Assembly: GCA_021159235.1 (NCBI GenBank)
Contig: JAGGSF010000116.1
Coordinates: 1-21,114 of the forward strand
Length of the DNA stretch: 21,114 nucleotides
Direction: 5' to 3'
From: Deltaproteobacteria bacterium
GTDB taxonomy: Bacteria > Campylobacterota_A > Desulfurellia > JAGGSF01
Of the stretch, positions 3,341-3,862 are shown in pieces; position 1 is the first letter of the stretch, and each line of letters starts with the position of its first letter. The notes beneath the pieces were generated by a model. It did not search any database and had not been told where the DNA came from. It saw only the letters and a program-made list of their open reading frames with translations. The position numbers were made by a program, and so were the translations under genes.

Positions 3341-3583
3341 CTAAAACTTGTAAGCCTTAAATGCCATCAATGTTTGTGTGTTTTTTATCCCGTCAATCTT
3401 CTGGAGTTTATCGGGTATAATTTCATTAAAAGCCTCGTATTCGTTTACCTGAACCTTTACCACAAGGTCGTAAGGCCCTGCAACGGAATAAACTTCCACT
3501 GCTTCTTCTAACTGGGATATTCTCTCTGCTACATCGTGGATTTTTCCTCTTTCTACATTAATTAAAATTAGGGCTGTAAGCAT
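3341..3583 (-). CDS. Stand-alone Lrp/AsnC-type RAM (ligand-binding) domain protein
   Basis: An 80-residue protein consisting only of the effector-binding domain of Lrp/AsnC regulators: a beta-alpha-beta-beta-alpha-beta fold with the characteristic glycine motif AGPYDLVVKVQV (35-46) and a final strand. The N-terminal DNA-binding helix-turn-helix of Lrp is absent, so by itself it should not bind DNA. Stand-alone RAM proteins are known in bacteria and archaea; they oligomerise and bind amino acids. The start is well supported by GGGAGG six bases before the ATG, and a strong promoter lies 40-70 bases upstream. It is the first gene of the trpDCF unit, which suggests, without proving, a role linked to tryptophan or another amino acid. 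Confidence 0.88.
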   Translation of the reverse strand: MLTALILINVERGKIHDVAERISQLEEAVEVYSVAGPYDLVVKVQVNEYEAFNEIIPDKLQKIDGIKNTQTLMAFKAYKF

Positions 3584-3625: not shown

Positions 3626-3654
3626 GTTATAATTAAAGATTTGTGTCTTGACAA
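3626..3654 (-). promoter_or_regulatory. Promoter of the RAM-trpDCF operon
   Basis: On the minus strand TTGTCA (3649-3654), a 17-base spacer and TATAAC (3626-3631) match the sigma-70 consensus at 5 of 6 positions in each box. Transcription would start near 3619, giving a leader of about 36 bases, too short for an attenuator or T-box. A second, perfect TATAAT (3610-3615) with a poor -35 could give a nested start. The two -10 elements form an inverted repeat, ATTATAA-N10-TTATAAT (3610-3633). The -35 box lies in the outer edge of the structured repeat. Confidence 0.55.
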
Positions 3655-3745
3655 CTGCCAGAGGCAGTTGCAAGCAAACAACTTTGTTGTTTGTCTTGAC
3701 AACTCTCGCAGAGAGTTGCAAGCAAAGCGAAGCTTTGTCTTGACA
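3645..3745. repeat. Tandem structured repeat with covarying palindromic arms
   Basis: Two tandem copies (3645-3692, 48 bp; 3693-3736, 44 bp) plus the first 9 bases of a third (3737-3745). Each opens with GTCTTGACAACT, then a short palindrome, then AGTTGCAAGCAAA, a second palindrome and TTT. The framework is identical between copies but the palindromes differ: CAACTGCC-AGA-GGCAGTTG (3652-3670) against CAACTCTC-GCA-GAGAGTTG (3700-3718), and AAACAAC-TTT-GTTGTTT (3676-3692) against AAAGC-GAA-GCTTT (3724-3736). All have three-base loops. The framework arms also pair (TTGCTTGCAAC with TTGTCTTGACAAC, allowing one-base bulges). No protein-coding potential is credible here. Confidence 0.85.
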
Positions 3746-3768
3746 TTTTCCATATTCAGTGCTAATGC
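3740..3768 (+). promoter_or_regulatory. Possible promoter of tRNA-Val and the downstream operon
   Basis: TTGACA (3740-3745), a perfect -35 carried by the partial third repeat copy, is followed after 17 bases by TAATGC preceded by TGC, an extended -10-like arrangement. The -10 itself is poor (2 of 6). Transcription would begin about at the mature tRNA 5' end (3775). An alternative upstream promoter is TGGACA (3603-3608)-N19-TATAAT (3628-3633), which would place the hairpin repeat in the leader. Confidence 0.35.
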
Positions 3769-3774
3769 TTATGT

Positions 3775-3846
3775 GGGCGCATAGCTCAGTGGGAGAGCAC
3801 TTGCTTGACGTGCAAGGGGTCGGAGGTTCGAAACCTTCTGCGCCCA
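3775..3846 (+). tRNA. tRNA-Val (anticodon GAC)
   Basis: A complete 72-nt cloverleaf: acceptor GGGCGCA pairs with TGCGCCC and the discriminator is A3846; the D arm is GCTCAGTGGGAGAGC; the anticodon stem CTTGC/GCAAG closes the loop TTGACGT with anticodon GAC (valine codons GUC/GUU); the variable loop is five bases; the T arm GGAGG-TTCGAAA-CCTTC has one G-U pair. CCA is not encoded, so the 3' end must be added by the nucleotidyltransferase. It lies only 16 bases before the thrS start, with no terminator between, and so is probably the first cistron of the long plus-strand transcript. Confidence 0.95.
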
Positions 3847-3862
3847 TCATTTGTAGAAATAG

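Follow-up and report, generated by a model that had tools for sequence, protein, structure and literature searches.

The array upstream of a tRNA-Val gene in the 21,114-nt stretch of DNA that was analysed (hereafter the window) probably consists of clustered copies of a REP-like miniature mobile DNA element that is non-autonomous. The family to which these copies belong is a previously unnamed double-hairpin element of about 48 bases, found in a genus of Desulfurellaceae-related bacteria, and it is mobile. In general kind it is a double hairpin of the sort known from REP sequences and GC clusters; its framework is new, its target is TTGA, and it has a habit of settling at -35 boxes.

Structure of the array

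A two-hairpin unit is present in two tandem copies, 48 bp apart, at 3640-3745 of the window, and the array that they form spans 3648-3739. Each unit is roughly 48 bp long and consists of hairpin a followed by hairpin b. Hairpin a conforms to TTGaCAA-x-LLL-x'-TTGCAA, with a bulged A, and hairpin b to GCAAA-y-LLL-y'-TTTGtC, with a bulged T. The features of the array and its surroundings are as follows.

3341..3583, minus strand: divergent gene of 80 aa, resembling by eye an Lrp/AsnC-type ligand-binding domain (ORF list)
3648..3673, plus strand: hairpin a1, TTGACAACTGCCAGAGGCAGTTGCAA, TTGaCAA-CTGCC-AGA-GGCAG-TTGCAA with the bulged A (sequence)
3674..3695, plus strand: hairpin b1, GCAAACAACTTTGTTGTTTGTC, GCAAA-CAAC-TTT-GTTG-TTTGtC with the bulged T; a1 and b1 make one 48-bp unit (sequence)
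3696..3721, plus strand: hairpin a2, TTGACAACTCTCGCAGAGAGTTGCAA, TTGaCAA-CTCTC-GCA-GAGAG-TTGCAA (sequence)
3722..3739, plus strand: hairpin b2, GCAAAGCGAAGCTTTGTC, GCAAA-GC-GAA-GC-TTTGtC; a2 and b2 make the second unit, of 44 bp (sequence)
3740..3745, plus strand: terminal TTGACA, which closes the array on the right and is probably the tRNA-Val -35 (sequence)
3763..3768, plus strand: probable -10, TAATGC, with a 17-bp spacer and a TG one base upstream; among the weaker matches
3774..3848, plus strand: tRNA-Val(GAC), downstream of the array (ARAGORN, Rfam)

A preliminary description of this DNA had reported two copies of a common framework, one-base bulges within it and four self-complementary cassettes with a three-base centre; the copies lie at 3648-3673 and 3696-3721, the bulges are the A of hairpin a and the T of hairpin b, and all four cassettes read as described. 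The architecture of a1 and b1 is that of units gained cleanly at other loci, and the cassette of a2 also occurs in an insertion in rsmA in a sister species (G001). The array is situated between two divergent genes, the 80-aa gene on the minus strand and the tRNA-Val gene on the plus strand, and it is asymmetric, with its right end forming the -35 of a promoter. At 3763-3774, the predicted start of tRNA-Val transcription falls approximately at the first base of the tRNA, which would allow for almost no 5' leader; the corresponding spacing in G001 is longer.

Distribution of the family

Further arrays were found upstream of genes in the same genome (1.13 Mb in 122 contigs), including those for an NAD(P)HX epimerase, a phosphatase, mraZ and others, as recognized by eye from their translations. 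The search of the genome and its relatives that had been suggested was performed with a covariance model of hairpin a (R1, 28 nt) and detected the family in all three species of the genus (G000, G001 and G002) but not in any of the 22 further genomes searched for the phylum. The same range emerged when 61 genomes were searched at the DNA level, apart from one weak match in G009 (E 9.5e-4), which has neither CTTGACA nor a second hairpin, escaped the covariance model and was taken as chance. An exact-pattern search in other sequenced species matched only a MAG of the same genus (JAGMDW01, 'Desulfurellaceae bacterium RS_18_25', placed in Campylobacterota in NCBI), and no copies were found in the phages, plasmids and viral contigs searched. 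Copies thus exist beyond the window, in its own genome and in two sister species. The three genomes of the genus are fragmented drafts, at least one of them a MAG, and because many arrays lie at contig ends, counts of arrays are lower bounds.

Another repeat, unrelated to the first and at least 116 bp long, was observed in two copies with 98% identity (L008 1540-1660 and L139 448-563, both in G000:C19). Both adjoin arrays or promoters orthologous to those with arrays, and part of this repeat is also present in G001 (L095, 89% over 57 bp).

Covariation of the hairpin arms

Hairpins for a test of pairing were gathered by their framework alone, not by pairing. The framework columns, on which the search was keyed, therefore carry no weight, and neither do the outermost C and G, which the script supplied. 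Among 50 distinct a cassettes, 202 of 233 cells pair (87%), while dealing the right arms to other copies reduced pairing to 50%, and to at most 62% in 1000 trials. The b cassettes pair in 418 of 489 cells (85%), as against 38% in a letter-shuffled control. The cassettes are therefore palindromic elsewhere in the family as well, at frequencies far above controls. The covariation suspected from the window was likewise borne out, as 37 a hairpins of equal length contained 62 two-sided changes where 19 were expected from shuffling. A recurring set of cassettes (CTGCC, CTCTC and ACGCT; CAAC, CGAC, CACC and GC) is common to unlinked loci and to different species, and loops are found in both orientations (AGA/TCT, TTC/GAA).

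Turnover was also evident between orthologous loci. At several of them (L102/L047, L097/L051), both arms of the cassettes differ between G001 and G002 within nearly identical flanks, and an orthologous b hairpin near L103 carries a compensatory pair change, with GGGAATTCTC...GAGAATTCCC in G001 and GGAAATTCTC...GAGAATTTCC in G000. The covariation is that of DNA palindromes turning over as whole cassettes. The arms are probably kept complementary by arm-to-arm correction and whole-unit replacement, with the fold under selection.

The preliminary description had offered three origins for the repeat: a mobile structured element, a self-templating element or a processed RNA next to a tRNA. The first is upheld by the dispersed copies and by the filled and empty sites described below. 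Self-templating, in the sense of copying local host sequence, is not supported by the cassettes, which bear no likeness above shuffles to the promoters at which they sit. The third, a structured RNA (a processed small RNA or a leader) whose arms covary under RNA selection, is very improbable. The 110-nt stretch folds better than nearly all of its shuffles as RNA (z -4.6), in agreement with the foldable array claimed at first, and covariation of the arms would be expected of such an RNA; the DNA fold is equally good relative to its shuffles (z -6.1), however. The fold that ViennaRNA chooses is an alternative one, with CAAG pairing rightward with CTTG. Mismatches in the a cassettes comprise 10 G-T and 8 A-C, without the G-U excess that RNA selection would favour; the 18 G-T and 8 A-C of the b cassettes leave a little room for it. 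Furthermore, arrays precede the -35 of the gene that follows them, that of the window lies between divergent genes, most copies are not adjacent to a tRNA, and Rfam gave no match over the window except the tRNA. An RNA role is thus not supported.

Mobility and array growth

Shared loci of G001 and G002 are mostly 92-99% identical, and two of them are clean filled/empty sites, each with one unit in G001 and none in G002. At the first, TTTCTC/TTGATATAAAGG gains TTGACAACTCTCGCAGAGAGTTGCAAGCAAACGACTTCGTCGTTTGTC, 48 bp that constitute exactly one a-b unit; at the second, GTTTGTA/TTGATTTGCTG gains a 47-bp a-b unit. Once the unit is removed from the comparison, the flanking sequences can be aligned gap-free, at 96.75% identity across 677 bp for the first site and at 97.5% across 280 bp for the second. 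Both gained units abut 5'-TTGA, and both empty sites read TTGAT. The first site is located in rsmA/ksgA near its 3' end (L052 1506-1553, G001:C61), where the unit is in-frame and encodes DNSRRELQANDFVVCL, 16 residues near the C-terminus; this insertion is also absent from the outgroup G000. Unit number changes as well, since one orthologous array comprises six identical units in G001 and one in G002.

The behaviour of the arrays might also be accounted for by expansion in place, whereby quasi-palindromes would arise and multiply at a -35 box through replication slippage and template switching, without any transposition. Tandem identical units are found in G001 (six copies in C28, and three repeats of an 89-bp period in C79), and both the complementarity of the arms and the inverted loops are in line with this idea. 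It is nevertheless quite unlikely, as identical cassettes are shared between loci that are not linked and between species, single units have been gained cleanly where no copy existed before, and the cassettes are unlike local host sequence.

Placement at promoters

Arrays are found almost exclusively immediately upstream of a promoter's -35 box. When a -10 was defined as a hexamer with A2 and T6 lying 16-18 bp after the TTGA of the right end, 36 of 40 arrays had one after their terminal TTGA, compared with 8 of 79 internal TTGACA copies (Fisher 3e-18); 31% of shuffled downstream sequences meet this definition. Under a stricter promoter definition, 30 of 40 array ends qualified versus 15 of 98 intergenic TTGA sites from a 163-kb genome sample, a background whose gene mask is crude, and 20 of 29 ends qualified once orthologues had been grouped by hand (p 8e-8). 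The tRNA-Val promoter of the window does not pass the strict test. Because the terminal hexamers differ (TTGATA, TTGATT, TTGAAA, TTGAAT and TTGACT occur), only TTGA is required.

Copies hold one fixed orientation relative to the promoter. The alternative of a two-sided promoter element, with the left end serving as the -35 of the divergent gene, was rejected: 11 of 40 left ends have a -10, which is the shuffle level overall, although this arrangement fits at rpmB in all three species. At this rpmB/phosphatase locus (L003, L050 and L032), the first a hairpin is identical in the three species, and its left edge can also be read as the divergent rpmB -35 (TTGTCA/TTGCCA, with TATATT at 17 bp). A general rule that hairpins precede promoters was ruled out, because a 163-kb portion of the genome contained 58 promoter-like sites, none of them with a hairpin directly before it.

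Strong polar placement upstream of the -35, a constant framework and the fact that two or three species have arrays at shared promoters are all features that a promoter-bound regulatory array would possess, in which the hairpins or the TTGACAA/TTGCAAG framework would act as operator-like sites or cruciforms and array size would tune expression. Several observations make such a role unlikely. Unit number and cassettes change faster than the flanks, nothing unites the genes served (tRNA-Val, mraZ, a phosphatase, an epimerase), arrays are missing from several orthologous promoters, and one copy lies in-frame within the coding region of rsmA. The lack of hairpins at the 58 promoter-like sites likewise argues against a general promoter part.

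Proposed mechanism and candidate machinery

As a mobile element, one copy would consist of about 47-48 nt, hairpin a and then hairpin b, and its insertion at 5'-TTGA would leave host-TTGA-(CAA x x' TTG / CAAGCAAA y y' TTTGTC)-TTGA-host. TTGA also starts the sigma-70 -35 hexamer TTGACA, which would explain why most surviving copies lie directly upstream of a -35 and leave the promoter intact. Because insertion would recreate TTGA(C) at both edges, arrays could grow by self-insertion, and unequal exchange between identical units may contribute to their growth. The promoter bias may reflect the use of TTGA as target, together with purifying selection at other sites.

The element might move in the form of folded single-stranded DNA, with a trans-acting HUH/Y1 enzyme of the type known from IS200/IS605 or REP systems making the cut after TTGA. 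This single-strand route is the preferred mechanism, with confidence that falls somewhat short of even. Arm-to-arm template switching or gene conversion, together with whole-unit replacement, would then preserve the fold that the enzyme uses. A DDE enzyme with a 4-bp target duplication is a possible alternative, which would give the same TTGA-flanked pattern; TTGA on both sides fits such a duplication, and the ends (TTGACAA.../...TTTGTC) form at most a short imperfect inverted repeat.

The sole Y1_Tnp gene in the genus encodes a 322-aa protein with a Bac_DnaA_C domain, which by domain content belongs to the DnaA_C group of TnpA-REP relatives (group as in PMC6006769). It is present in G000 and G001, kept at the same place in the two species (L056 1462-2427 and L057 1462-2427), and was not found in G002. 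Its motif reads NSCFH instead of NHxH, whereas a relative from a different genus has SNHYH, so that the first histidine of HUH is missing. The protein scores about 60 against NF047646, below the cut-off of 80, and no repeats flank its gene. Y1_Tnp genes, several of similar length to that for the 322-aa protein, also occur in genera without the repeat. This RAYT was rejected as the driver in view of its damaged motif, its absence from G002 and its relatives in repeat-free genera. Neither TnpB nor a canonical TnpA was found in the three genomes, and the Y1_Tnp and TnpB searches of these genomes yielded no intact partner transposase.

A more far-reaching reading is that of a bacterial mobile element whose machinery recognizes the fold rather than the arm sequence and steers to -35 boxes; framework and pairing alone would be preserved, and the arms would be swapped as whole palindromic cassettes. 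It is put forward with considerable doubt. If true, insertion would place structured DNA in front of promoters and leave them unbroken.

The unit is a very small piece of mobile DNA with filled and empty sites at the species level, and in the sister genomes its gains, the growth of its arrays and the turnover of its arms can be followed. How palindromes alter both arms at once thereby becomes directly testable. The family also suggests that an element can spare its host by targeting the TTGA with which the -35 box begins.

Comparison with known systems

The family shares several properties with REP, BIME and REPIN sequences and their TnpA-REP (RAYT) proteins (PMC3116915, PMC6006769), namely short, dispersed extragenic palindromes that are single or clustered, non-autonomy, bulged hairpins, a tetranucleotide at the hairpin foot and, in the genus, one TnpA-REP relative. 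It differs in that the tetranucleotide is TTGA in all units instead of GTAG/GTGG, and in that two direct hairpins of unlike framework replace the inverted REP pairs. Furthermore, the arm sequence is unconserved here, copies are placed at -35 boxes, the tnpA-REP gene is unflanked with its HUH motif damaged, and copies persist in G002, which lacks the gene.

Like IS200/IS605 elements and their miniature derivatives, the units have a hairpin at each end and were inserted 3' of a fixed TTGA at both clean sites, for which a 4-bp duplication would look identical. In IS200/IS605 elements the cut site lies outside the hairpin, whereas here it would lie inside the foot of hairpin a. The present element is also only about 48 nt in all, and no parent IS, canonical TnpA or TnpB was detected in the three genomes. 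ISDra2 inserts 3' of TTGAT (PMC2806898), and the TTGAT of both clean empty sites is suggestive only.

By description, the family resembles in form the mobile GC clusters of yeast mitochondria, such as the 42-nt GC42 with its AG target (PMC4478555), and the double-hairpin elements of Allomyces (cited in PMC7218506). These are very short palindromes with putative target bases on both sides, which occur in clusters, merge and shuffle units and diversify rapidly with preservation of hairpin structure. The present family differs from GC clusters in its bacterial chromosomal location, its TTGA rather than AG target and its promoter placement.

Two further groups resemble it in part. Rickettsia palindromic elements (RPE), of about 150 bp and often within genes (PMC10969869), are palindromic repeats able to lie in-frame within protein genes, like the rsmA copy; in the present family that copy was the one found in a coding region, with promoters accounting for nearly all the rest. 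Correia elements and other promoter-linked MITEs are likewise small, non-autonomous, situated upstream of genes and able to affect promoters (PMC10969869). Correia elements carry their own promoters (PMC10969869), whereas the present element adjoins a -35 that is already there and supplies no -10.
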